Shown: piece by piece, positions 11,246 through 41,669 of the stretch
Position numbering within the stretch: position 1 is the stretch's first letter
Layout of the letters: every line of letters begins with the position of its first letter
Assembly (NCBI GenBank): GCA_030427735.1
Contig: JAUIBP010000016.1
Location: 1-55,849, forward strand
Source of the DNA: Bacteroidia bacterium
GTDB lineage: Bacteria > Bacteroidota > Bacteroidia > Flavobacteriales > Flavobacteriaceae
DNA: 55,849 bases
Direction: 5' to 3'
Program-made: the position numbers and the translations under genes
The notes under the pieces: model-generated
Database searches by the model: none
What the model was told of the DNA's origin: nothing
Seen by the model: only the letters and a program-made list of their open reading frames with translations

Positions 11246-12304
11246 ATGTCAAACCCCTTATTAGGTACAGTCCTGCATGCAATTGGTGGTGTTTCAGCAT
11301 CGAGCTGTTATTTGCCATTTCAAAAAGTAAAACATTGGTCGTGGAATAGTTATTGGTTAATCCAGGCATTATTTGCTTGGTTAATTTTTCCTTTAATTGT
11401 GGGATATTTAACCGTTCCTAATTTATGGGAAGTTTTAACCAATTCTCCAATTACAGCCATGTACAATGCGTTCATTTTAGGAGCCATATATGGGTTTGGA
11501 GGTATGGCCTTTGGTTATGCAATAAAATACATCGGCTTTTCTTTAACGTATACAATTTCTATTGGGCTTTCGGCTATAATTGGTACGGTTGTACCTTTAA
11601 TTATCCACGGTACTTTAATAACACAATTCTCCAAGCCAGGCGGACTAATAGTGTTGTTAGGGATGATTCTGTCTTTAATTGGAGTTTTTATTTGTGGATG
11701 GTCTGGCTACAAAAAAGAGCAAAACCTAAAAGAGAGCAAGCAATTGGAAGCAAGTGCTTTTAATTTAAAAAAAGGGGTGTTGCTCACCGTATTTTCAGGA
11801 GTATTATCAGCTGTTTTTGGGGTGTCTTTAGAATTAGGAGCTCCTATAGCAGAACTTGCTGGCAAATATGGCGCAGGACATTTTCAGGGTAATGCCAATT
11901 TATTGGTGTCGACTGCTGGTACGTTTTTAACCAATGTTATCTGGTTTACCATAGTGAGTTTTAAACAAGATACTATTAAAGAGTTGGTAGCAGTTAAAGC
12001 TTTAGGAGCAGGCCTTTGGTTTCGTAATGTATTGCTTTCTGTACTTACCGGAGGCTTGTGGTATTTTCAATTCTTTTTTTACGGACTAGGCCATGTGCGA
12101 ATGGGAGCTTTTCAGTTTGCTAGTTGGGCAATACATATGTCTATGTTAATATTTTTCAGCTTCATTGTAGGTGTTATTATGAAAGAATGGCGTGCCGTAT
12201 CAAAACAAACATATGTTACTTTAATAGCAGGACTCTTAATATTAGTATGTTCATTCGTAATAATCACTTATGGAAGCATGCAAGGTAATGGAGCCGTAAC
12301 TTAA
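11246..12304 (+). CDS. rhaT: RhaT-type sugar/proton symporter
   Basis: The 352-residue protein is a ten-segment membrane transporter of the L-rhamnose:H+ symporter family (DMT superfamily), close in length to E. coli RhaT. The start NPLLGTVLHAIGGVSASSCY and the following PFQKVKHWSWNSYWL are typical, as are FGGMAFGYAIKYIGFSL and the late FFFYGLGHVRMG. It opens the tight operon that ends with the MaoC gene and is the operon's only transporter. No rhamnose isomerase, kinase or aldolase is nearby, so the true substrate may be another sugar or sugar acid. I use the symbol for the family only. Confidence 0.82.
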   Translation: MSNPLLGTVLHAIGGVSASSCYLPFQKVKHWSWNSYWLIQALFAWLIFPLIVGYLTVPNLWEVLTNSPITAMYNAFILGAIYGFGGMAFGYAIKYIGFSLTYTISIGLSAIIGTVVPLIIHGTLITQFSKPGGLIVLLGMILSLIGVFICGWSGYKKEQNLKESKQLEASAFNLKKGVLLTVFSGVLSAVFGVSLELGAPIAELAGKYGAGHFQGNANLLVSTAGTFLTNVIWFTIVSFKQDTIKELVAVKALGAGLWFRNVLLSVLTGGLWYFQFFFYGLGHVRMGAFQFASWAIHMSMLIFFSFIVGVIMKEWRAVSKQTYVTLIAGLLILVCSFVIITYGSMQGNGAVT

Positions 12305-12327
12305 ATAATAGATTTTATAAAAATATA

Positions 12328-13488
12328 ATGAAAGAACCAATTATTTTAAAAGGAATTACATGGGATCACAGTCGTGGGTATTGTCCTAAAGTGGCGACAG
12401 CTCAACGCTTTTCAGAATTGCATCCACATATAAAAATAGAATGGTCTAAGCGTTCCCTTCAGGGTTTCGCAGACGAGCATATAGATGTTTTAGCACAACA
12501 GTACGATTTGTTAATTATAGATCATCCTTGGGCTGGTTATGCCGCCGATACTGGTATTATTATACCATTTAATAAATATTTGCCAGAAGCTTTTATACAA
12601 GATCAGCAACAACAATCGGTTGGTAAATCTTGCGAGAGCTACAATTTTGGAGGCGATTTATATGCACTCCCTGTAGATACGGCAACTCCTGTGGCATCGA
12701 GCCGTTCGGATTTGTTAGAGAAAGCAGGCGAAAAAGTTCCTGGAACTTGGGAAGATCTATTGAAATTGGCTAAAAAGGGACTCGTAACAATGCCAGGAAT
12801 TCCTATTGATACCCTTATGAATTTTTATATGTTTTGCAATGTTTTAGGCGAGGAACCTTTTAAAACGGATGATTATATTGTGAGTAACGCCGTGGGAATA
12901 GAAGCTTTAAAGATGATGAAGCGTTTAACCGATTTATTAAATCCCGAATTTTTTAATTGGAATCCGATTAAAGTTTACGAAGCCTTAACATCGCGAAACG
13001 ATTATGCATACTGCCCATGGGCTTACGGTTACACAAATTACGCTCGAGATGGATATGCTTCAAAAAAGCTGCAATTTCATGATATTATAAAAAATAACGA
13101 AGGAAAAGATTTTCAAAGTACGTTGGGCGGTGCTGGTTTGGCCATTTCGGCAAGCAGTAAACATATTGATGCAGCGGTGTCTTATGCCGAATTTATGGCT
13201 TCGCCAGAAACTCAAAAACGTTTGTATTTCAATAACGGAGGTCAGCCAGGACATAGATCGGCTTGGCTTGATGCGCATACCAATGCCTTAAGTAGTCAGT
13301 TTTTTCAATCGACATTAAAAACCCACGACAATGCTTTTTTAAGACCACGTTACAATGGGTATTTACATTTTCAGGATAATGCTGGTGATTACGTTAGAAA
13401 CTATCTTATGTCTGGTGGCGATGAAGCTAACGTTCTTAATCATATGAATGCACTTTACGTGGAATCTAAAACTAAAGTCAGTTCATGA
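12328..13488 (+). CDS. Solute-binding-protein-fold protein without signal peptide (paralogue 1)
   Basis: The 386-residue protein resembles family 1 extracellular solute-binding proteins: GITWDHSRGY at the start, LLIIDHPWAGYA (about 69-80), YALPVDTATPV (about 111-121), VPGTWEDLLKLA (about 137-148) and AVSYAEFMASPETQKRLYF (about 280-298). Yet residue 1 is followed directly by KEPIILKG, so there is no hydrophobic signal peptide or lipobox, and no ABC permease or ATPase is nearby. It starts 24 bp after rhaT and overlaps the first CoA-transferase gene by 4 bp. A cytoplasmic ligand-binding or catalytic role in the same pathway is inferred. The actual ligand cannot be predicted. Confidence 0.75.
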   Translation: MKEPIILKGITWDHSRGYCPKVATAQRFSELHPHIKIEWSKRSLQGFADEHIDVLAQQYDLLIIDHPWAGYAADTGIIIPFNKYLPEAFIQDQQQQSVGKSCESYNFGGDLYALPVDTATPVASSRSDLLEKAGEKVPGTWEDLLKLAKKGLVTMPGIPIDTLMNFYMFCNVLGEEPFKTDDYIVSNAVGIEALKMMKRLTDLLNPEFFNWNPIKVYEALTSRNDYAYCPWAYGYTNYARDGYASKKLQFHDIIKNNEGKDFQSTLGGAGLAISASSKHIDAAVSYAEFMASPETQKRLYFNNGGQPGHRSAWLDAHTNALSSQFFQSTLKTHDNAFLRPRYNGYLHFQDNAGDYVRNYLMSGGDEANVLNHMNALYVESKTKVSS

Positions 13489-14654
13489 AACCATTAGAAG
13501 GCATTTTAGTTGTAGAATTTTGTCAGTTTCTCGCAGGGCCATCAGCCGGATTACGATTAGCCGATTTAGGTGCGCGGGTTATAAAAATTGAACGCCCTAT
13601 AAAAGGAGAAGGAGGGCGGCAAATAGCCATAAAAAATCTATTTATAGAGGGCGATAGTTTGGTGTTTCATACTATAAACAGAAATAAACAGTCGTTTGCT
13701 GCAAATTTAAAAGATCCAGAGGATTTAAAACGCATTAAAAAAATACTTGAAGTAGCAGATATTATGACCCATAATTTTAGACCAGGTGTTATGGAAGCTA
13801 TTGGTTTAGATTACAAAACAGTAAAGCAGCTTAATTCGCGTATAATTTATGGAGTTGTTACTGGATATGGTAGTGAAGGGCCTTGGCAAAAAAAACCGGG
13901 CCAGGATCTTTTAATTCAAGCAATGTCCGGATTAGCATATTTGTCGGGCACAGCTAAAGATCATCCTACTCCTATGGGAATTGCAGCCAGCGATATTTTT
14001 ACAGGAACACATTTTACGCAAGGTCTATTGGCTGCTCTGGTAAGACGCGGTAAAACTAATGAAGGTGCCCTGGTTGAGGTTAGTTTATTAGAGTCGACTA
14101 TAGATATGCAATTCGAGGTTTTAACCACTTATCTTAACGATGGTGGCAAACCTCCTAAACGCGCAAAAAATGGTAATGCTCAAGCTTATTTGGGAGCACC
14201 TTACGGGGTGTATAAAACTAAAGATAGCTATATTGCTATTGCCATGGTGCCAATGACAAAGCTGGAAACCCATTTAAAATTTGAGTTGCCAGAACATTTA
14301 AAGTCAGAAGCCAATTGGTTCGATTTTAAAGATGAGATCATGACGCTTATTCAAGCTATTTTAAAGGAAAAAACAACAAAAGCTTGGTTAGACATTTTAG
14401 AGCCCGCAGACATTTGGTGTTCGGCAATCTTTAATTATAAAGAACTGATGGCGCATGACGCGTATAAAATACTACAAATGGATCAAGATGTAATTACGGC
14501 CTCTGGCGTAACAATTAAAACCACAAGATGTCCAATACAAATTGATAGTCAATATTACTATGCTTCAAAGGCAGCGCCCAAGGTTGGCGAAGATAATGAG
14601 ACCATAGTACACGAATTTGGATTGCAAAACTTTAACAACCAAAATCAGTCATAA
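13485..14654 (+). CDS. CaiB/BaiF family (class III) CoA-transferase, first of a tandem pair
   Basis: The 389-residue protein has the class III CoA-transferase blocks: [20 protein letters not shown] (11-30), [22 protein letters not shown] (96-110), GYGSEGPW and [10 protein letters not shown], where Asp170 matches the catalytic aspartate of formyl-CoA transferase. Such enzymes move CoA between carboxylic acids through an aspartyl-CoA anhydride. The ATG overlaps the preceding gene by 4 bp, and its stop overlaps the next ATG by 1 bp, so the three are translationally coupled. It and the next gene are clear paralogues, sharing EPADIWC and TTRCPI near the C terminus. The acid it activates is unknown. 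Confidence 0.88.
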
Positions 14655-15796
14655 TGAAACCACTTCAAGATATTATCGTCGTAGACTTAAGTCAGTTTTT
14701 GTCAGGACCATCAGCAAGTTTAAAGTTAGCAGATTTAGGGGCGCGAGTTATTAAAGTAGAAAAGCCTGAAACGGGCGATATTTGTCGTTCGCTGTATGTT
14801 TCTAATCTTAAAATGAATGGCGATTCTTCAATTTTTCATGCCATAAACCGAAATAAAGAAAGTATAACGGCGAATTTAAAAGACGCTAAAGACTTAAACC
14901 GAATTAAGAAATTAATTGCGCAGGCCGATATTGTTATGCATAATTTTAGACCAGGGGTTATAGAGCGATTAGGCCTAGATTACACGACCGTAAAGCAAAT
15001 AAATCCATCTGTTATTTACGGGGAAATCTCCGGATATGGTACTGCAGGGCCTTGGAAAGATAAACCTGGTCAGGATTTATTACTTCAATCCTTATCAGGC
15101 TTAACATGGTTGAGCGGGAATGAAGCAGCTGGTCCAGTACCGATGGGTTTAGCTATTGTAGATCTTATTTCTGGCGCTCATCTCGTTCAAGGTATTTTGG
15201 CAGCCTTGGTAAGAAAAGGGGTTAATGGTCAAGGAGCTAAGGTTCAGGTAAGCATGTTAGAATCTATAATAGATTTTCAGTTCGAGGTTATTACAACCTA
15301 TTATCAAGATGGCGGACAATTACCGCAACGTACAAAAACTAATAATGCTCACGCTTATTTAGGCGCTCCTTATGGTATTTATAAAACAGAAAATGGCTAT
15401 TTGGCTCTAGCAATGGGGCAAATCCCGTTTTTAGGAGAATTGTTAGGGTGCGATAGTCTTAAAAATTATCCAGAACCGGAATCTTGGTTTTCTAAACGAA
15501 GTGAAATAAAATCAATTTTAGCAGCACATTTAGAAACAGATACCACGCAAAAGTGGTTGTCGTTATTAGAGCCGGCAGATATTTGGTGTGCAGATGTCAT
15601 GGATTGGAATAGGTTATTGCAAACCGAAGGATATCAGGTTTTAGATATGGAGCAGGAAGTCGTTATGAGCGATGGTTACAGGTTTAAAACAACGCGTTGC
15701 CCGATTAAAATTGATGGTGAAGTTTTAAAATCTGATAAAGGTACGCCAATTTTAGGCGAGCACACCCAAACTATAATTTCAGAATTTAATTTGTAG
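14654..15796 (+). CDS. CaiB/BaiF family (class III) CoA-transferase, second of a tandem pair
   Basis: The 380-residue paralogue of the preceding gene keeps the same blocks in register: [20 protein letters not shown] (11-30), [15 protein letters not shown] (96-110), GYGTAGPW and [10 protein letters not shown], again with the candidate catalytic aspartate at residue 170. Both copies are therefore probably active. They differ most in the region after about residue 220, which suggests different acids or partner subunits. The pair could be a heterodimer, since class III enzymes form interlocked dimers, or two transferases acting in sequence. It is followed 3 bp later by the second solute-binding-protein homologue. 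Confidence 0.88.
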
Positions 15797-15799
15797 AGC

Positions 15800-17032
15800 A
15801 TGCCGAATACTTTTAAAATAGCAGTTAGAAAATTTGAACCTTTCGAAACAACTATCCAAAAGTTATGGACGGCTTTTTGCGACGAAACAGGGTGTACTTT
15901 AAAACTAGAAGCGGTTGCTTTAGGTCTTAATCCGCTACACAATGCACTATTGGGCAAAGAACATGGCATGAGCAAAGGCGATTGGGATGTCGTGCATATA
16001 AACACCGATTGGATTGCAGAGGCTTACGACAATGCGATTTTAGAAGACCTAGCTCCGTGGATAGATGAAAATCCACCAGAAGATTATCCGCAAGGATGGT
16101 CCGATGCGCTTTTGGGTATGCAGACTTTCGGCGCGCAAATTTTAGGTTTACCATTTCATGATGGCCCAGAATGTTTGATATATAGAACAGATCTCTTTGA
16201 AAATGAAGCAGAGCAGAACCGGTTTCAAAAACAATATAATAAAGCATTAAAACCTCCAGAAACTTGGGAAGAGTTTCATCAAATTGCTCAGTTTTTTCAT
16301 AGTCCAGAACAAAATTTATATGGCAGCGCCTTTGCGTTATTTCCAGACGGACATAATTCTGTTTTCGATTTTAGTATTCAATTATGGGCGCATGGTGGTG
16401 CTCTTTTAGATGATAATGGTAAGGTGTTTATAAATACGCCACAGGCAGTAGAAGCCTTAAATTTTTATCGGAATATTATGAATGATGAAACGGCTGTTCA
16501 CCCGCATTCTAAAACATTCGATTCCATCCAGGCAGGTATGGCTTTTGCTAAAGGGGAGGTCGCTATGATGGTAAATTGGTTTGGATTTGCTTCGATGAGT
16601 GAAGTGATTTCAGAATCTAAAGTAAAAGGAAAAGTAAACGTATCCAATATCCCTTCGGGGCCGAACGGGCAAGGCGTTTCGCTCTGTGTGTATTGGTTGT
16701 ATGCCATAGCTAAAGGCAGTTGCAATAAACAAATCGCATACGATTTTATAAGGTTTGCTACTTCTAAAAAAAATGACAAACTATTAACCTTAACAGGCGG
16801 TATAGGTTGTAGAAAATCAACTTGGAACGATGCAGAGGTGAATCGTATCGTGCCGTTTTATAAGACTCTAAATGGCTTGCACGAGCAGGTAGGTACTTTG
16901 CCTAGAAAAACCAATTGGAACGCCATAGCCCATGTTATAGACGATATGATGACAAAGTTAATAACTTCGGAAGTTTCAATTCCTGAATTATTAGAAGCGG
17001 CTCAATTTCAAATTAATAAAATAGAACTGTAA
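15800..17032 (+). CDS. Solute-binding-protein-fold protein without signal peptide (paralogue 2)
   Basis: The 410-residue protein has the family 1 solute-binding signature: WDVVHINTDWIAEAYDNAIL (about 62-81), GLPFHDGPECLIYRTDLFE (about 114-132), PPETWEEFHQIAQFF, and GMAFAKGEVAMMVNW (about 240-254). It begins PNTFKIAVRKFEPFE, with no signal peptide, like paralogue 1. Overall similarity between the two is low outside family motifs, so they arose long ago or were recruited separately. It sits between the second CoA-transferase and the oxidoreductase with spacings of 3 and 1 bp. A periplasmic role would need an unseen export route, so a cytoplasmic function is more likely. Confidence 0.75.
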   Translation: MPNTFKIAVRKFEPFETTIQKLWTAFCDETGCTLKLEAVALGLNPLHNALLGKEHGMSKGDWDVVHINTDWIAEAYDNAILEDLAPWIDENPPEDYPQGWSDALLGMQTFGAQILGLPFHDGPECLIYRTDLFENEAEQNRFQKQYNKALKPPETWEEFHQIAQFFHSPEQNLYGSAFALFPDGHNSVFDFSIQLWAHGGALLDDNGKVFINTPQAVEALNFYRNIMNDETAVHPHSKTFDSIQAGMAFAKGEVAMMVNWFGFASMSEVISESKVKGKVNVSNIPSGPNGQGVSLCVYWLYAIAKGSCNKQIAYDFIRFATSKKNDKLLTLTGGIGCRKSTWNDAEVNRIVPFYKTLNGLHEQVGTLPRKTNWNAIAHVIDDMMTKLITSEVSIPELLEAAQFQINKIEL

Positions 17033-17033
17033 T

Positions 17034-18083
17034 ATGACTATTTCTTACGAGCAAGAATGGCCTAAAAAAAAGTTGCCTATAGTAATTATTGGAGCAGGCG
17101 GCATTGTAAAAGATGCCCATTTACCAGCTTATAAAAAGGCTGGATTTAAAGTTTTAGCCATTTACGATTTACACGTGAATCAGGCGAAACAATTAGCTAG
17201 CACTTTCGATATCGAAAATGTATGCGAAACATTACCAGAATTAATTGCTACAGCCCAAGGCACTAAACAGGTTGTTTACGATTTGGCTGTGCCGGCAGCG
17301 CAGATAATTAAAATATTACCAAATCTTCCAGATGGTAGTGCCGTTTTAATCCAGAAGCCCATGGGCGAGACTCTAGAAGCCGCACAGGAGATTTTAGAAA
17401 TCTGTAACGCAAAACAGTTAAAGGCTTCGGTGAATTTTCAGTTGCGTTTTGCGCCTTTTGTAAATGCTGCACGCTCTATAATTCAGTCAGGTGCAATTGG
17501 CGAATTGTACGACTTAAAAGTAAAGGTATGTACTTACACGCCGTGGCATTTATGGGATTTTCTATTACAAACACCACGGGTAGAAATTTTGTACCACAGT
17601 ATTCATTATATCGATTTGGTACGTTCTTTTTTAGGTGAACCAAAACGGGTAATGGCCAAGACCGTAAAGCACCCAAATGCGAAAGTAGCATCTACAAGAA
17701 GTAATATGTTGTTCGATTATGGTAACGAAATTAGCGCAACAATTAATACCAATCACGATCATAATTTTGGACGAGAACATCAAAAAAGTTTTATAAAATG
17801 GGAAGGAACAAAAGGTGTTATTGTAGCGACTATGGGCTTGCTTTTAGATTATCCACATGGCGAACCAGATGCTTTTGAATATTGTGTGATTAATGAAGAC
17901 GGACAAGCAAAATGGCAAACAGTTGCCATTGAAGGGTCTTGGTTTCCAGATGCATTTATGGGCTCAATGGCTAGTCTAATGCGCTATGTAGAAGATTCCG
18001 AAAATCAATTACCAACAGCAGTAACCGATGCCTTAAAAACCATGGAGTTGGTTGAGGCGGCTTACAAATCGAGTACATTTTAA
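17034..18083 (+). CDS. Gfo/Idh/MocA family NAD(P)-dependent oxidoreductase
   Basis: The 349-residue protein has a Rossmann domain starting LPIVIIGAGGIVKDAHLPAY, then the usual dinucleotide-fold strands. The family's EKP motif is QKP here (LIQKPMGETLEAA, about residue 107), keeping the functional lysine but not the glutamate. The catalytic region reads YHSIHYIDLVRSFLGEP, where the second His of HSIHYID fits the usual active-site position. Members oxidise or reduce sugars, inositols or sugar acids. It starts 1 bp after the second solute-binding homologue, so it belongs to this pathway, probably acting on the imported sugar or its acid. Confidence 0.88.
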   Translation: MTISYEQEWPKKKLPIVIIGAGGIVKDAHLPAYKKAGFKVLAIYDLHVNQAKQLASTFDIENVCETLPELIATAQGTKQVVYDLAVPAAQIIKILPNLPDGSAVLIQKPMGETLEAAQEILEICNAKQLKASVNFQLRFAPFVNAARSIIQSGAIGELYDLKVKVCTYTPWHLWDFLLQTPRVEILYHSIHYIDLVRSFLGEPKRVMAKTVKHPNAKVASTRSNMLFDYGNEISATINTNHDHNFGREHQKSFIKWEGTKGVIVATMGLLLDYPHGEPDAFEYCVINEDGQAKWQTVAIEGSWFPDAFMGSMASLMRYVEDSENQLPTAVTDALKTMELVEAAYKSSTF

Positions 18084-18116
18084 CAATTAAAATAACAATA
18101 AAAGATAAAGAGTAAC

Positions 18117-18569
18117 ATGATATTTAAATCGCAATTTTTTGAAGATTATACTATAGGAGATACCCGAAAAACTTTGGGAAGAACCATTACAGAAACCGAT
18201 ATTGTAATGCATGCTGGGCAAACTGGCGATTTTTTTCCTCACCATTTAGATGCCGAGTGGTGCAAAACTCAACCTTTTAAACAGCGTATAGCCCATGGCA
18301 CGCTTACGTTTAGTGTTGCTATAGGAATGACGGCAACAGAAATTAATCCTGAAGCATTTTCCAAAGGTTACGATCGTTTAAGGTTTATTAAACCAGTGTT
18401 TATAGGCGATACCATTAGGGTAGAGGTAACTATTATCGAAAAGAAAGACGATAAAAGACCGCAATTTGGTCAGGTGGTAGAACATGTAGATGTTTTTAAT
18501 CAAAATAACGAGTTGGTTATGGTCTGCGATCATTTGTTATTGGCAAATAGAAAATCGGCACACAACTAA
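18117..18569 (+). CDS. MaoC family hydratase/dehydratase
   Basis: The 150-residue single hot-dog-fold protein has the MaoC-like hydratase signature: [20 protein letters not shown], with candidate catalytic Asp38 and His42 or His43, and [15 protein letters not shown]. Such enzymes add or remove water across the double bond of an enoyl-CoA. This fits the two CoA-transferases upstream, which could make the CoA thioester. It closes the operon 33 bp after the oxidoreductase, and a terminator at 18630-18664 follows. Confidence 0.9.
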
Positions 18570-18629
18570 TCTGATGTAGTTTTTTGAACAGTTTTTTGTC
18601 GCAATTCACCCTATGTTTTTAACAGAAAA

Positions 18630-18664
18630 AAGACTTGCTTTTTAATACATAGCAAGTCTTTTTT
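18630..18664 (+). terminator. Rho-independent terminator of the CoA-transferase operon
   Basis: Ten-base arms AAGACTTGCT (18630-18639) and AGCAAGTCTT (18651-18660) run into a six-T tail. It defines the end of the 11246-18569 transcription unit. The rest of 18570-18872 holds only AT-rich sequence and the promoter box below. Confidence 0.9.
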
Positions 18665-18838
18665 AGTTCATTAGTATGTGTTTTTTTAGGAACAAATCCT
18701 ATCAATTTACAAGACTTTTGTTTTGTTAAGTATTTGATTTTAAGTGTTTTCAGTGCATTTATATGTCAGCCTTAATTTAAAGATGTTAATTTTTATAAAA
18801 AAAATGAATTATTGAATCGTAAACTCAATTTGTAACCT

Positions 18839-18872: not shown

Positions 18873-20381
18873 ATGAGTGAAAGCATTTATGAGACCAAAA
18901 CAGTAAATTCTACAAGCAATTTAGAAAGCTATTTTCAAGAATTTGCAAAAGGTGTAATAGGGCGTCATCATAAGTTTAAAAGTGTATATGGCGAACAAGA
19001 ATTATTGTATGCCGATTGGGTAGCTAGCGGACGTTTGTACCAGCCGATAGAAGATATAATGCAAAACGAGATTGGACCTATGGTTGCCAATACGCATTCG
19101 TTTTCTAGCGAAACAGGTAAAGCTTCAACATACGCTTACAGACATGCCAGAAACATTATAAAAGAACATGTTAATGCCAATGAAGACGATGTTTTAATTA
19201 CTGCCAATACTGGAATGACAGGTGTTCTGGCTCATTTTATGCGTATTATAGGATTTCGTTTTCCAGATGCAAAATTAAAAAAGCAAAGTCTTCCAGAGGC
19301 CGAGCGTCCAGTGGTGTTTATTTCTCATATGGAGCATCATTCCAATCATGTGCCCTGGATGGAAACCATTGCCGATGTGGTTATTTTAGAATGTAACGAC
19401 CAACAACTTATCTGCCCGAACAAACTGGAAGAAGCCATTCAGAAATATAAAAACAGAACGGTTAAAATAGGTTCGTTTACTGCCTGTTCTAACGTTACGG
19501 GAATCATATCACCTTATCAAGAATTAGCTAAAATTATGCATCAGCATGGTGGCTATTGTTTTATAGATTTCGCAGCTTCTGCACCATATGTAGATATAGA
19601 TATGCATCCTGAAGATCCAGAAGCACGTTTAGATGCCGTATTTTTTTCACCTCATAAATTTTTAGGTGGTCCTGGAACTTGTGGCGTATTAGTTTTTAAT
19701 AAACAGTTATACAAGGCTTCGTGTCCAGATGTGCCAGGTGGCGGAAACGTACAATGGACCAACCCTTGGGGAGAATATGCTTATTTTAAAGATATTGAAG
19801 TAAAAGAAGATGGTGGTACGCCTGGATTTTTACAGGTGATGCGTACAGCTTTAGCTATGCGCTTAAAAGATAAAATGAACACCCAAAAGATTGCCGATCG
19901 CGAAGAAGAGCTTTTAAGTTTGTGTTTTAGCGAACTTAAAAAAATACCTAACCTGTTTATTTTAGGGAGTACAGAAGTAAAGCGCATTGGTTGCGTGTCT
20001 TTCGGAATTAAAAATGTGCACTACAATTTAATAGTTAGATTACTAAATGATAGATTTGGTATTCAAGTGCGCGGCGGGTGGTCTTGTGCAAGTACGTATG
20101 GACATTATCTGTTTGCTTACGATAAAGAAACCTCACAGGATTTAGTACACAATTTAAACGAAAAGAATTTAACCGAAAAACCAGGTTGGGTGCGTTTATC
20201 ATTACACCCGATTACTACCAATAGCGAGTTGTTGTTTATTTGCGATGCCATAAAGCAAGTTGCCGAACATTACGAAACTTGGGGTAAAGATTATGTTTAT
20301 AATAAGGCTAATAACGAATTTGAACATAAAGCTAAAGACACCGAAATTATAAATAAAGTTAAAGACTGGTTTATATTATAA
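18873..20381 (+). CDS. Class V aminotransferase / cysteine desulfurase-like PLP enzyme
   Basis: The 502-residue protein belongs to fold type I, class V. The cofactor lysine is in FFSPHKFLGGPGTCGVL (about residue 262), preceded by FIDFAASAPYVDIDM, whose Asp pairs with the pyridine nitrogen; ISHMEHHSNHVPW is another typical block. A C-terminal RGGWSCASTYGHYLF segment resembles the region that holds the active-site Cys in SufS-type desulfurases. It is about 90 residues longer than SufS and has no suf genes nearby, so a desulfurase role in cluster assembly is unlikely. It is monocistronic or leads the pfkB unit, with a terminator hairpin at 20413-20437 between. Confidence 0.82.
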   Translation: MSESIYETKTVNSTSNLESYFQEFAKGVIGRHHKFKSVYGEQELLYADWVASGRLYQPIEDIMQNEIGPMVANTHSFSSETGKASTYAYRHARNIIKEHVNANEDDVLITANTGMTGVLAHFMRIIGFRFPDAKLKKQSLPEAERPVVFISHMEHHSNHVPWMETIADVVILECNDQQLICPNKLEEAIQKYKNRTVKIGSFTACSNVTGIISPYQELAKIMHQHGGYCFIDFAASAPYVDIDMHPEDPEARLDAVFFSPHKFLGGPGTCGVLVFNKQLYKASCPDVPGGGNVQWTNPWGEYAYFKDIEVKEDGGTPGFLQVMRTALAMRLKDKMNTQKIADREEELLSLCFSELKKIPNLFILGSTEVKRIGCVSFGIKNVHYNLIVRLLNDRFGIQVRGGWSCASTYGHYLFAYDKETSQDLVHNLNEKNLTEKPGWVRLSLHPITTNSELLFICDAIKQVAEHYETWGKDYVYNKANNEFEHKAKDTEIINKVKDWFIL

Positions 20382-20412
20382 GGTTTACTTAAAAAATAGT
20401 ATTTTTAAAAAG

Positions 20413-20437
20413 CAGGATATACATCCTGTTTTTTTTT
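20413..20437 (+). terminator. Terminator hairpin after the aminotransferase gene
   Basis: Arms CAGGAT and ATCCTG with a 4-base loop are followed by nine T residues. Only 9 bp separate its end from the next ATG. Confidence 0.75.
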
Positions 20438-20445
20438 GATTCATA

Positions 20446-21339
20446 ATGAAAAAACAATTACAGATCGTTTGTTTTGGAGAGGTGCTTTTTGATGTATTTC
20501 CAAGCCACGAAAAAATTGGAGGAGCTCCACTAAACGTAGCGCTGAGGTTACAATCATTTAATAATACCGTTTATATGATTAGCGGCATTGGTACAGATGA
20601 AAAAGGCGCTGATGCATTGGAGTACATGACTACTCGTGGTCTTGATACCTCCCTTATCCAGCAGCAGGACAATTATAAAACAGGGCTGGTACATGTGTCT
20701 TTAGATGTAGATGGTGTCGCTTCTTACGATATAGCATCACCGTGTGCCTGGGATTTTATAGCGTTTCATCCCGAACAATTAGATGTAGTAAATACAGCAG
20801 ATGCCTTTGTTTATGGTAGCCTAATAGCACGGCACGAGGTATCTAAACACACCTTATTTCAAATTTTAAAAACCACAGCGTTTAAAGTTTTCGATGTTAA
20901 TTTAAGGCAGCCATTTATTACTAAATCTGTACTTGTCTCATTGATGCAAGCTGCCGATTTTATTAAGTTAAACAATGAAGAACTTTATGTTATTAGCGAT
21001 CTTTTAGAGTCTAAGTATAAAGGAGTAGAGCAAAACATACAATGGCTCGCGAAACTTACGCAAACAAAACACATTTGTGTAACCAAAGGCAAGTTTGGTG
21101 CTGTTTTGTGGTATAATAATGCATTTTATTATAACAGTGGTTTTCGAGCTCAGGTTAACGATACAGTGGGGGCGGGCGATTCTTTCTTAGCGACTTTAAT
21201 TCATAAATTATTAGTTGGCGAACATCCGCAGCAGGCCATTAATTACGCTTGTGCAGTTGGGGCTATGGTGGCAGAAAAAGCGGGAGCGAACCCAGAGCTT
21301 TCTGAAAAACAAATTGAAAATTATATTAATCCCTTGTAA
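20446..21339 (+). CDS. PfkB family carbohydrate kinase (fructokinase-like)
   Basis: The 297-residue kinase starts IVCFGEVLFDVFPSHEKIGG, the ribokinase-family substrate site, with IGGAPLNVALRLQ right after. The ATP and catalytic motif near the C terminus is NDTVGAGDSFLATL, with the base Asp in GAGDS. The layout is closest to bacterial fructokinases, but substrates of this family are hard to predict. It is 2 bp ahead of a Gfo/Idh/MocA gene in the same direction, suggesting a shared sugar pathway. Confidence 0.85.
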   Translation: MKKQLQIVCFGEVLFDVFPSHEKIGGAPLNVALRLQSFNNTVYMISGIGTDEKGADALEYMTTRGLDTSLIQQQDNYKTGLVHVSLDVDGVASYDIASPCAWDFIAFHPEQLDVVNTADAFVYGSLIARHEVSKHTLFQILKTTAFKVFDVNLRQPFITKSVLVSLMQAADFIKLNNEELYVISDLLESKYKGVEQNIQWLAKLTQTKHICVTKGKFGAVLWYNNAFYYNSGFRAQVNDTVGAGDSFLATLIHKLLVGEHPQQAINYACAVGAMVAEKAGANPELSEKQIENYINPL

Positions 21340-21341
21340 AA

Positions 21342-22322
21342 ATGGCATCAAAAATAGTCTGGGGAATAATAGGTTGTGGCGATGTAGCCGAAGTAAAAAG
21401 TGGACCTGCTTTTTCGCTAATACCAAACTCTAAATTGAAGGCGGTTATGCGCAGAAATTTAGATAAAGCCAAAGATTTTGCGCTAAGGCATAACGTTCCT
21501 TATTATTACAATACGGTACAGCCTATTTTAAACGACCCCGAAATTAATGCGGTATATATTGCAACGCCTCCGGCCTCTCATTTAGATTATGCATTACAGG
21601 CTATTAAGGCAGGAAAACACGTGTATTTAGAAAAGCCCATGACCTTAAATACAGCGCAGTCCCAACAACTTTGCAATGCGGTTAAAGTTAGTGGAACAAA
21701 GTTAACTGTGGCACATTACAGACGCAAACTACCAGCATTTTTAAAAGTTAAGGAATTGCTTGACGGTAAATGCATAGGTGATGTTTTGTTTGCAGATATT
21801 CAGGTGTTACAACCGCCTAAATCGCATCTTGTAGCGCAGTCGGAATTACCCTGGCGGTTTAATGCGGCTATTGCTGGTGGTGGTTTGTTTCACGATTTGG
21901 CACCGCATCAATTAGATTTAATGTATTTGTTTTTTGGCGAATATAATCGTGCTTATGGGGTGTCCGATACTCAAAATAAGGCGTCCAAAGTAGACGATCT
22001 TGTTAACGGTATAATTCAATTTGAAAATGGGGTGCAATGTCGTGGAATTTGGTCTTTTAATTGTGCCGATGTATCGAAAACCGATCGCTGTGTGATTTAT
22101 GGTACAGAGGGGCAAATCGAGTTTTCGTTTTTTGGGAACTATGTACATTTAAAAACCGCAGGACAGGCGCATCAGTTTACATTTTCTAATCCCAAGCATG
22201 TGCAACATCCCATGATAGCGGCTGTTGTAGATTATTTTAGCGGAAAACAAGATGTCAATCCTTGTGCTGCCGATGAAGCTTTAATAGTTTCGGAACTGAT
22301 GGATACTTTTTGTGTTAATTAA
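21342..22322 (+). CDS. Gfo/Idh/MocA family oxidoreductase
   Basis: The 326-residue protein starts KIVWGIIGCGDVAEVKSGPA, a typical nucleotide-binding loop, and keeps the family EKP motif in HVYLEKPMTLN. The presumed active-site region reads GGGLFHDLAPHQLDLMYLFFG, with the conserved Asp and His on the catalytic helix. It acts on a sugar or sugar alcohol using NAD(P), and is coupled to the kinase by a 2-bp spacing. Repeat copy A begins 23 bp after the stop codon. Confidence 0.88.
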   Translation: MASKIVWGIIGCGDVAEVKSGPAFSLIPNSKLKAVMRRNLDKAKDFALRHNVPYYYNTVQPILNDPEINAVYIATPPASHLDYALQAIKAGKHVYLEKPMTLNTAQSQQLCNAVKVSGTKLTVAHYRRKLPAFLKVKELLDGKCIGDVLFADIQVLQPPKSHLVAQSELPWRFNAAIAGGGLFHDLAPHQLDLMYLFFGEYNRAYGVSDTQNKASKVDDLVNGIIQFENGVQCRGIWSFNCADVSKTDRCVIYGTEGQIEFSFFGNYVHLKTAGQAHQFTFSNPKHVQHPMIAAVVDYFSGKQDVNPCAADEALIVSELMDTFCVN

Positions 22323-41093: not shown

Positions 41094-41669
41094 ATTGGTT
41101 TCAAATTTGGGTCTAAAACCCTGCAATTTCATTGCAGCACTTTAGTAATATAAAAATTATATCTTTATGAGATGTCAGTATATCAACGGAAAGGATCTCA
41201 TACAGTTAGTCGTTTGAGTTGTCATATAGTTTGGTCAACGAAGTATCGATATAAAGTATTGAAAGGAGATATTCAAAAGCGATGTCGAGACTTACTGATT
41301 CAGATTAGTGAGGCAGAAGAATTAGAAATATTAAAAGGAGTAGTAAGTTCAGATCATGTTCATCTTCATATAGAATATTCCCCAACGCAAAGTATTAGTT
41401 TTTTGGTGAAACAGTTGAAGGGGAGAAGTTCAAGAAAATTGCAACAGGAATTTCCTCAATTAAGAAAAATGTATTGGGGTAGACATTTTTGGGCAACCGG
41501 ATATGGAGTTTGGAGTACAGATAATATAACGGATGAAATGGTAAATGAATATTTGGAGCATCACAGAAAACCCAATTCAGATAATTCTAATTTTATATTA
41601 GAGTAAAAAAGGAGGGACTAAAGTCCCTCGTGTAACAAACCTATGGACTTCTAGTCCATAGTGGTTTAG
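41094..41669 (+). mobile_element. IS200/IS605-type insertion element with tnpA only
   Basis: The left end starts ATTGGTTTCA right after repeat E and carries the hairpin CTGCAAT-TTC-ATTGCAG (41121-41137). The right end has GGGACTAAAGTCCC (41614-41627) and a 21-bp palindrome with 9-bp arms and a TCT loop (41641-41661), then GTGGTTTAG. There are no terminal inverted repeats and no target duplication, as expected for this family. It shares both ends with the dispersed repeats. Confidence 0.8.
41172..41606 (+). CDS. tnpA: IS200/IS605 family transposase TnpA (Y1 HUH type)
   Basis: The 144-residue protein is full length for TnpA. It starts with SRLSCHIVWSTKYRYKVL, has the HUH metal site HVHLHIEYSP at about 58-67 (His60-Leu-His62 arrangement), the SFLVKQLKGRSSRKLQ helix, and the catalytic Tyr in MVNEYLEHHRK near the C terminus. 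It cuts and joins single-stranded DNA at hairpin ends. The catalytic residues are all there, so it may still be active and mobilise the nearby palindromic repeats. No TnpB gene accompanies it. Confidence 0.92.
   Translation: MSVYQRKGSHTVSRLSCHIVWSTKYRYKVLKGDIQKRCRDLLIQISEAEELEILKGVVSSDHVHLHIEYSPTQSISFLVKQLKGRSSRKLQQEFPQLRKMYWGRHFWATGYGVWSTDNITDEMVNEYLEHHRKPNSDNSNFILE

Follow-up and report, generated by a model that had tools for sequence, protein, structure and literature searches.

We describe here an operon of seven genes in a 55,849-nucleotide stretch of DNA (the window) from a bacterium of the Flavobacteriaceae, and a conserved gene cassette of which this operon is one version. The genes encode a RhaT-family transporter, two proteins with the fold of solute-binding proteins (SBP1 and SBP2), two class III coenzyme A (CoA)-transferases (CoT1 and CoT2), an oxidoreductase of the Gfo/Idh/MocA family (GFO) and a MaoC-type hydratase (Table 1). 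All seven lie on the plus strand between positions 11246 and 18569, and their successive spacings of 23, -4, -1, 3, 1 and 33 bp in open reading frame (ORF) coordinates are exactly those given in a first-pass annotation made from the sequence alone. Its family calls were likewise borne out by Pfam, with RhaT, SBP_bac_1 (twice), CoA_transf_3 (twice), GFO_IDH_MocA and MaoC each scoring above the gathering threshold. None of the seven proteins reached an NCBIfam cut-off, and therefore a certified function can be assigned to none of them. As that annotation had also stated, the operon ends at a single strong terminator; the 14-bp hairpin with its T-run was matched in RNA folding by none of 200 shuffles, and it is missing from the list produced by a pattern scan because its loop of 11 nt exceeds the 3-8 nt that the scan allows. 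The two binding-protein homologues were said to stand without ATP-binding cassette (ABC) transporter parts, and Pfam places no such component among the seven ORFs.

Table 1. Features of the operon in the window.
Feature	Position	Strand	Evidence and remarks
RhaT-family sugar/proton symporter	11246..12304	+	PF06379, E 3.5e-59; exchangeable transporter of the cassette
SBP1, leaderless SBP_bac_1-fold protein	12328..13488	+	PF01547; 4-bp overlap with CoT1
CoT1, class III CoA-transferase	13485..14654	+	PF02515
CoT2, class III CoA-transferase	14654..15796	+	PF02515
SBP2, leaderless sugar-SBP-fold protein	15800..17032	+	PF01547/PF13416
GFO, Gfo/Idh/MocA-family oxidoreductase	17034..18083	+	PF01408/PF22725
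MaoC, hot-dog-fold hydratase/dehydratase	18117..18569	+	PF01575
Intrinsic terminator, hairpin and T-run	within 18618..18672	+	RNA fold -17.3 kcal/mol, z -6.3

A conserved cassette with exchangeable transporters

The operon was compared with 94 loci (93 of them distinct), comprising the best 80 of 379 SBP2 relatives retrieved by a single genome scan based on an SBP2 alignment, together with 14 loci collected earlier; SBP2 is present in all of them by construction. Locus L012 lies on the same contig as L072, L226, L227, L229 and L121 repeat earlier loci, and L042, L046, L059, L062 and L014 are short or cut stretches in which an absence means little. All counts below ignore kinship. The order SBP1-CoT1-CoT2-SBP2-GFO-MaoC, with intervening genes allowed, is found in 69 of the 94 loci, and six more keep it with an extra MaoC-like gene. 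This result upholds the proposal that the genes form one conserved unit and rejects a chance neighborhood. CoT2 is present in 93 loci, GFO in 91, MaoC and SBP1 in 87 each and CoT1 in 86, and we regard the cassette as almost certainly a conserved catabolic unit.

Within the order to which the window belongs, SBP2 occurs in 10 of 246 sampled genomes, and the gene order is intact in all nine cassette genomes other than that of the window; eight of the ten belong to one genus and carry closely alike loci. A MaoC profile matched 23 of 395 genomes in a sample of the phylum. Scores above 220 bits were reached by 17 of these, among them those ten cassette genomes, all of the window's family; the remaining six score 127-133 bits and lie in frames of about 680 codons. 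Searches of plasmids found the gene set in Persicobacter, Rufibacter and Croceibacterium, and in the salt-loving archaeon Halostagnicola, where the CoA-transferase and SBP2 show 35% identity. Plasmid records matching SBP1 (145) and CoT2 (106) come mostly from Sinorhizobium and its kin. In nine proteobacterial plasmid records the CoA-transferase adjoins SBP1 and GFO and MaoC lie on the same record; on pSymB of S. meliloti the CoA-transferase-SBP1 pair is about 20 kb from the GFO-MaoC pair. The cassette appears to be widely exchanged.

One locus resembles a natural deletion (L176, genome G148): FucP, GFO and L-fucose genes are kept, with GFO beside FucP, and SBP1, CoT1, CoT2, SBP2 and MaoC are all absent from the single 19-kb stretch. 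In the whole genome, SBP2 and MaoC are absent at the cut-offs used. This joint absence suggests that the five genes act as one unit.

The transporter stands outside that core. RhaT is present in 34 of the 94 loci, a FucP-family permease, usually directly after MaoC, in 57, both in one and neither in four; other cut-offs give 32, 56 and no locus with both. An example of the FucP-family protein scores above the TIGR00885 cut-off, and the best score of the window's RhaT against the NCBIfam RhaT equivalog is 312.7 bits against a cut-off of 468. The proteobacterial loci and that of Croceibacterium carry ABC sugar importers with solute-binding-protein genes of their own. We therefore reject RhaT as a core part and treat it as an exchangeable accessory. 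The first-pass annotation had envisaged a CoA-dependent path for a sugar acid imported by the RhaT-type protein; the genes as a conserved unit are upheld, RhaT as a fixed importer is not, and a neutral 6-deoxy sugar is more likely than a sugar acid to be the imported compound, because the importers are of the RhaT, FucP or ABC sugar type and some loci carry mutarotase and lactonase genes.

Solute-binding folds, CoA-transferases and MaoC

The earlier proposal that both binding proteins are leaderless holds for most copies. Upstream of the homologous start, fewer than 15 codons of open frame are available in 74 of 91 copies of SBP1 and 76 of 94 of SBP2 (copies above 33% identity); in the rest, a leader is possible by length. 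The claim rests on this upstream-room test because a hydrophobicity test proved weak: its cut-off was passed by one of 91 SBP1 and none of 94 SBP2 N-termini, but by just one of three leader-bearing control proteins, one of the three having been started inside its leader. AlphaFold models of SBP1 (pLDDT 92.0, 19-sequence alignment) and SBP2 (pLDDT 93.4, 38-sequence alignment) retrieved ABC sugar SBPs in all of their top 20 Foldseek rows, with TMq of 0.73-0.82 and 0.77-0.86, respectively; the matches include 6dtq, 5iai, 1eu8 and SmoF. Most copies have no room for an export signal, and the window's operon holds no ABC partner genes. Both proteins model as complete sugar-SBP folds, and they appear to stay in the cytoplasm. 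Each is closely coupled to a CoA-transferase gene, with a median gap of -4 from SBP1 to CoT1 (at most 0 in 52 of 85 pairs) and of -2.5 from CoT2 to SBP2 (at most 0 in 62 of 92). MqnA/MqnD and Thi5-type proteins are cytoplasmic enzymes with an SBP fold, and they offer a precedent for recruitment of this fold to the cytoplasm; SBP1 and SBP2 belong to a different SBP subfamily, and any activity of theirs would be hypothetical. We agree with the first-pass annotation that they are the oddest component of the operon.

The enzyme families named in that annotation are recognizable by their retained residues. PF02515 covers nearly the full length of CoT1 (308 bits) and CoT2 (312 bits). Asp170 of CoT2 is invariant in 17 rows, and CoT1 likewise keeps an aspartate at the catalytic position in 17 rows; this residue is presumably the counterpart of Asp169 of formyl-CoA transferase. 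By domain and aspartate both are class III CoA-transferases, predicted to transfer CoA. They share family and aspartate with CaiB/BaiF enzymes such as formyl-CoA transferase, succinate--glutarate CoA-transferase and succinyl-CoA:mesaconate CoA-transferase, but fall below every NCBIfam equivalog cut-off and are usually encoded beside an SBP gene. In a midpoint-rooted tree of 61 CoA-transferases, CoT1 and CoT2 of Bacteroidota and Balneolota form two separate clades, and the proteobacterial and archaeal proteins fall outside both. Identity to the alphaproteobacterial copies is higher for CoT2 than for CoT1. In GFO, Gly20, Gly22, Lys108, Pro109, His188, His191 and Asp194 are at least 95% conserved across 21 rows, a set that excludes the second copies in rows L058 and L095.

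MaoC (PF01575, 87 bits) is the best conserved member of the cassette between phyla. Of 13 rows, all have Asp38 and at least 90% have His43; we presume these to be the catalytic Asp/His pair. Its S. meliloti orthologue (L120:11142-11600) is identical over 153 residues to PDB 4ffu, labelled 'oxidase', the closest solved structure among MaoC/PaaZ-type hydratases. The cassette protein resembles these in family and in the retained pair, and differs in sitting in a sugar operon. A second MaoC-type protein is encoded at L026:8408-8845, L228:5839-6357 and L248:8283-8837. Its Bacteroidota and alphaproteobacterial copies are 65-70% alike and about 37% alike to the main MaoC, and at the catalytic position it has no histidine. 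Pairing of this protein with the main MaoC is a possibility.

MaoC also led to seven loci from outside the window's family, of which three repeat earlier loci with SBP2 and four are new. In these four (L225, L228, L230 and L231), SBP1-CoT1-CoT2 is followed by a COG3618-type amidohydrolase, whose best NCBIfam match, below cut-off, is L-fucono-1,5-lactonase, and SBP2 is absent from the stretch. With repeats removed and four plasmid loci added, an amidohydrolase is encoded at 10 of the 13 loci that lack SBP2 and at 9 of the 93 that have it (raw Fisher p 6e-7). The amidohydrolases split into groups that are just 22-34% alike, which suggests from sequence that they were recruited separately. The exchange hints at one step served by either SBP2 or the lactonase; alternatively, the two arrangements may belong to different substrate variants. 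That SBP2 itself performs the lactonase step, as this positional exchange might suggest, seems to us unlikely.

Sugar context and the question of the dehydratase

The genes around the cassette point to a sugar of the fucose/rhamnose type. In the window's order, L-fucose dehydrogenase is present in all ten cassette genomes and in 7 of the 236 others (raw Fisher p 1e-13), and FucI is found in none of the ten. Eight loci from the genus of G119 carry divergent genes for L-fucose dehydrogenase, a lactonase-like amidohydrolase, a Zn-alcohol dehydrogenase and a diketo-acid hydrolase, the first scoring above its NCBIfam cut-off and the other three below; within the fetched stretch the lactonase and the hydrolase are each found in seven. 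Among the 94 loci, glycoside hydrolase (GH) families GH106, GH78 and GH29 occur in 38, 23-24 and 9, respectively, and at least one of the three in 48, against none of 13 control stretches, which came from three genomes at round coordinates chosen by hand, not at random. The nine proteobacterial records variously carry genes for an ABC sugar importer, a mutarotase, a lactonase-like amidohydrolase, a mandelate racemase (MR)-family protein, L-fuconate dehydratase and a diketo hydrolase; the ABC locus of S. meliloti is linked to L-fucose. The substrate is probably of the 6-deoxy-L-hexose type, that is, L-fucose, L-rhamnose or a close derivative.

Two observations bear on neighboring sugar genes. 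Beside the Martelella cassette, L111:12779-21119 encodes a second sugar ABC importer with an annotated CoA transferase, an enoyl-CoA hydratase/isomerase, a short-chain dehydrogenase/reductase, an aldose 1-epimerase and a fumarylacetoacetate hydrolase-type (FAH) protein, perhaps an analogous CoA-dependent sugar route. At L062, L073, L087, L092, L094 and L096, OiaX- and OiaK-like (apionate-type) genes follow shortly after the cassette, with model scores below cut-off.

The oxidative (non-phosphorylating) L-fucose pathway comprises a dehydrogenase, a COG3618 lactonase, fuconate dehydratase, 2-keto-3-deoxy-L-fuconate (KDF) dehydrogenase, and a diketo hydrolase or an aldolase. The cassette resembles it in probable sugar class and transporters and, in part of the loci, in mutarotase, lactonase, diketo hydrolase and aldolase partners; L-fucose dehydrogenase co-occurs with it, but a known type of L-fuconate dehydratase was found in hardly any of the 94 loci. 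It differs in adding class III CoA-transferases, MaoC and leaderless SBPs, which are absent from the available portions of five accounts of L-fucose pathways (PMC11378808, PMC6946681, PMC5507952, PMC12263773, PMC3870299).

The dehydratase was followed with tblastn and chosen reference proteins. In the 94 loci this search found no UxaA-type dehydratase, an MR enzyme in one (L025) and IlvD in one (L097). Some loci encode partner enzymes that act on 2-keto-3-deoxy or diketo acids: a diketo hydrolase at seven, an RraA-like aldolase at three and an aldolase of the dihydrodipicolinate synthase (DHDPS) family at one, the Balneolota locus L098, together with a mutarotase and GH106. In the window genome, genes for L-fucose dehydrogenase and for lactonase-like and Zn-alcohol-dehydrogenase proteins are clustered, without the UxaA gene (and, by eye, the UxaB-like gene) present in the corresponding clusters of G119, G109 and G133; its sole UxaA match sits among hexuronate-looking genes (by eye), as does the only UxaA gene of G000, G002 and G231 (also by eye), and a diketo hydrolase homologue (62%) lies elsewhere in the genome. 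The dehydratase-free loci, the partner enzymes and the window cluster support, at the level of sequence, a putative CoA-dependent dehydration to a 2-keto-3-deoxy acid.

Several observations weigh against this reading and against a fucose-type substrate. L-fuconate dehydratase is annotated in three of the nine proteobacterial records (Shinella, Roseibium and Roseateles), the S. meliloti record has a 64% match to the MR reference, and eight of the nine have another MR-family gene; because these genes stand beside the set, MaoC is no simple substitute in proteobacteria. Every one of the order's ten cassette genomes has at least one UxaA-family gene and five of them have two, a UxaA gene lies inside the L-fucose cluster in G119 and G158, and three cassette genomes have a second IlvD/EDD gene. 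Two genomes with L-fucose genes, G148 and G095, lack both SBP2 and an acid-sugar-type MR and have a single UxaA gene each (IlvD was not searched there); because they show much the same gap, the missing dehydratase is perhaps not peculiar to cassette genomes. Together, the proteobacterial dehydratases, the UxaA genes in the G119 and G158 clusters and the two cassette-free genomes weaken a simple swap of L-fuconate dehydratase for MaoC. As to the sugar, just 18 of the 94 stretches contain one of the five fucose-linked genes looked for, alpha-L-rhamnosidase families outnumber fucosidases, and OiaX/OiaK-like genes at some loci could indicate an apiose-type substrate. Contact of SBP1 or SBP2 with a CoA-transferase, and catalysis by either, are purely hypothetical.

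Elsewhere in the window, a SufS-like (cysteine-desulfurase-like) class V aminotransferase, a PfkB sugar kinase and, by eye, a Gfo/Idh/MocA protein are encoded in the same direction beyond the terminator (18873-22322), and a small ORF at 41172-41606 has the look, by eye, of an IS200-type transposase.

A proposed route through CoA esters and its rivals

The best explanation as a whole, which we hold tentatively as falling somewhat short of an even chance, is that the cassette breaks down a 6-deoxy-L-hexose by way of CoA esters. The sugar would enter unphosphorylated; GFO, or else a partner dehydrogenase, would oxidize it to its lactone, which a lactonase (or SBP2 standing in for it) would then open to the aldonic acid. 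Together with SBP1, a partner that may bind the sugar acid, the CoA-transferases would form the aldonyl-CoA, from which MaoC could take the 3-hydroxyl off as water, an elimination made easy by the thioester, to give the 2-keto-3-deoxy acid or its CoA ester. The CoA would be passed on to the next acid molecule. A diketo-acid hydrolase, an RraA-like or DHDPS-family aldolase and an aldehyde dehydrogenase may complete the route to pyruvate and lactate or lactaldehyde. That MaoC dehydrates a sugar-acid CoA thioester is a serious possibility, though somewhat less likely than not; the fuller version, in which complexes of CoA-transferases and cytoplasmic SBPs run the route and SBP2 is now a lactone-processing enzyme in place of the amidohydrolase lactonase, is distinctly unlikely.

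The dehydratases found near some cassettes would be accommodated if the substrate were a modified deoxy sugar refractory to standard dehydratases, such as an O-methylated fucose or rhamnose. In the 3-O-methyl case, MaoC would eliminate methanol from the CoA ester and the product would join the adjacent L-fucose pathway, which would explain why the cassette lies beside L-fucose genes, L-fuconate dehydratase included, in Shinella, Roseibium and Roseateles, and why Flavobacterium G158 has a second, UxaA-containing L-fucose cluster. This chemistry, however, is a construct of our own, and we consider the alternative unlikely.

Another rare or branched sugar of plants or algae, such as D-apiose or another sugar of rhamnogalacturonan II, could place fucose genes nearby since the same glycan bears fucose. 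OiaX-like genes at 11 loci and OiaK-like genes at eight, some right after the permease, point this way, as do GH127 at 33 loci alongside the GH106 and GH78 families counted above, and the genes of the RuBisCO-large-subunit and four-carbon-acid-sugar-kinase families in the Croceibacterium stretch. Apionate-type genes are nevertheless absent from most of the 94 stretches, their place being taken by fucose or mutarotase genes at the Flavobacterium, proteobacterial and archaeal loci, and we consider this origin rather improbable.

Somewhat more improbable is the view that SBP1 and SBP2 sense ligands or buffer sugars in the cytoplasm and that the substrate of the CoA-transferases is an end product (lactate or a different hydroxy acid) rather than the sugar acid. 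Both proteins do model as complete sugar-SBP folds, and we know of no catalytic activity in this SBP subfamily, but their genes are coupled to CoA-transferases rather than to regulators, and dehydration of lactoyl-CoA by a MaoC fold is chemically implausible. Export of the SBPs by an unrecognized route, to work with an ABC importer, is barely credible in spite of a sequence and fold matching ABC sugar SBPs, as most copies have no room for a leader, which rejects exported receptors for those copies, most loci have RhaT or FucP-type importers, and the ABC importers at inspected loci have an SBP gene of their own.

Overall, the cassette is real, conserved and, within the literature searched, undescribed, and its sugar class is probably of the fucose/rhamnose type. 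The first-pass annotation knew of no described pathway with this exact set, and the sources, in the portions available, likewise yielded no description. A 2017 reconstruction, in the part available, contains a fucose locus without FucD in HL-49 (A. marincola) and a rhamnose locus in Rhodobacteriaceae bin08 that combines the mutarotase RhaM with six genes for enzymes whose roles are unclear (PMC5507952). If the 6-deoxy-L-hexose route through CoA esters is correct, the cassette might account for the FucD gap of HL-49 and for the bin08 rhamnose locus, as far as these are described there (PMC5507952). It would also mean that a transporter fold has been converted into a cytoplasmic metabolic part. 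Bacteria would then use CoA esters of sugar acids in the breakdown of deoxysugars, a feature of no pathway known to us, and a function would be gained for a family that current annotation treats as extracellular binding proteins.

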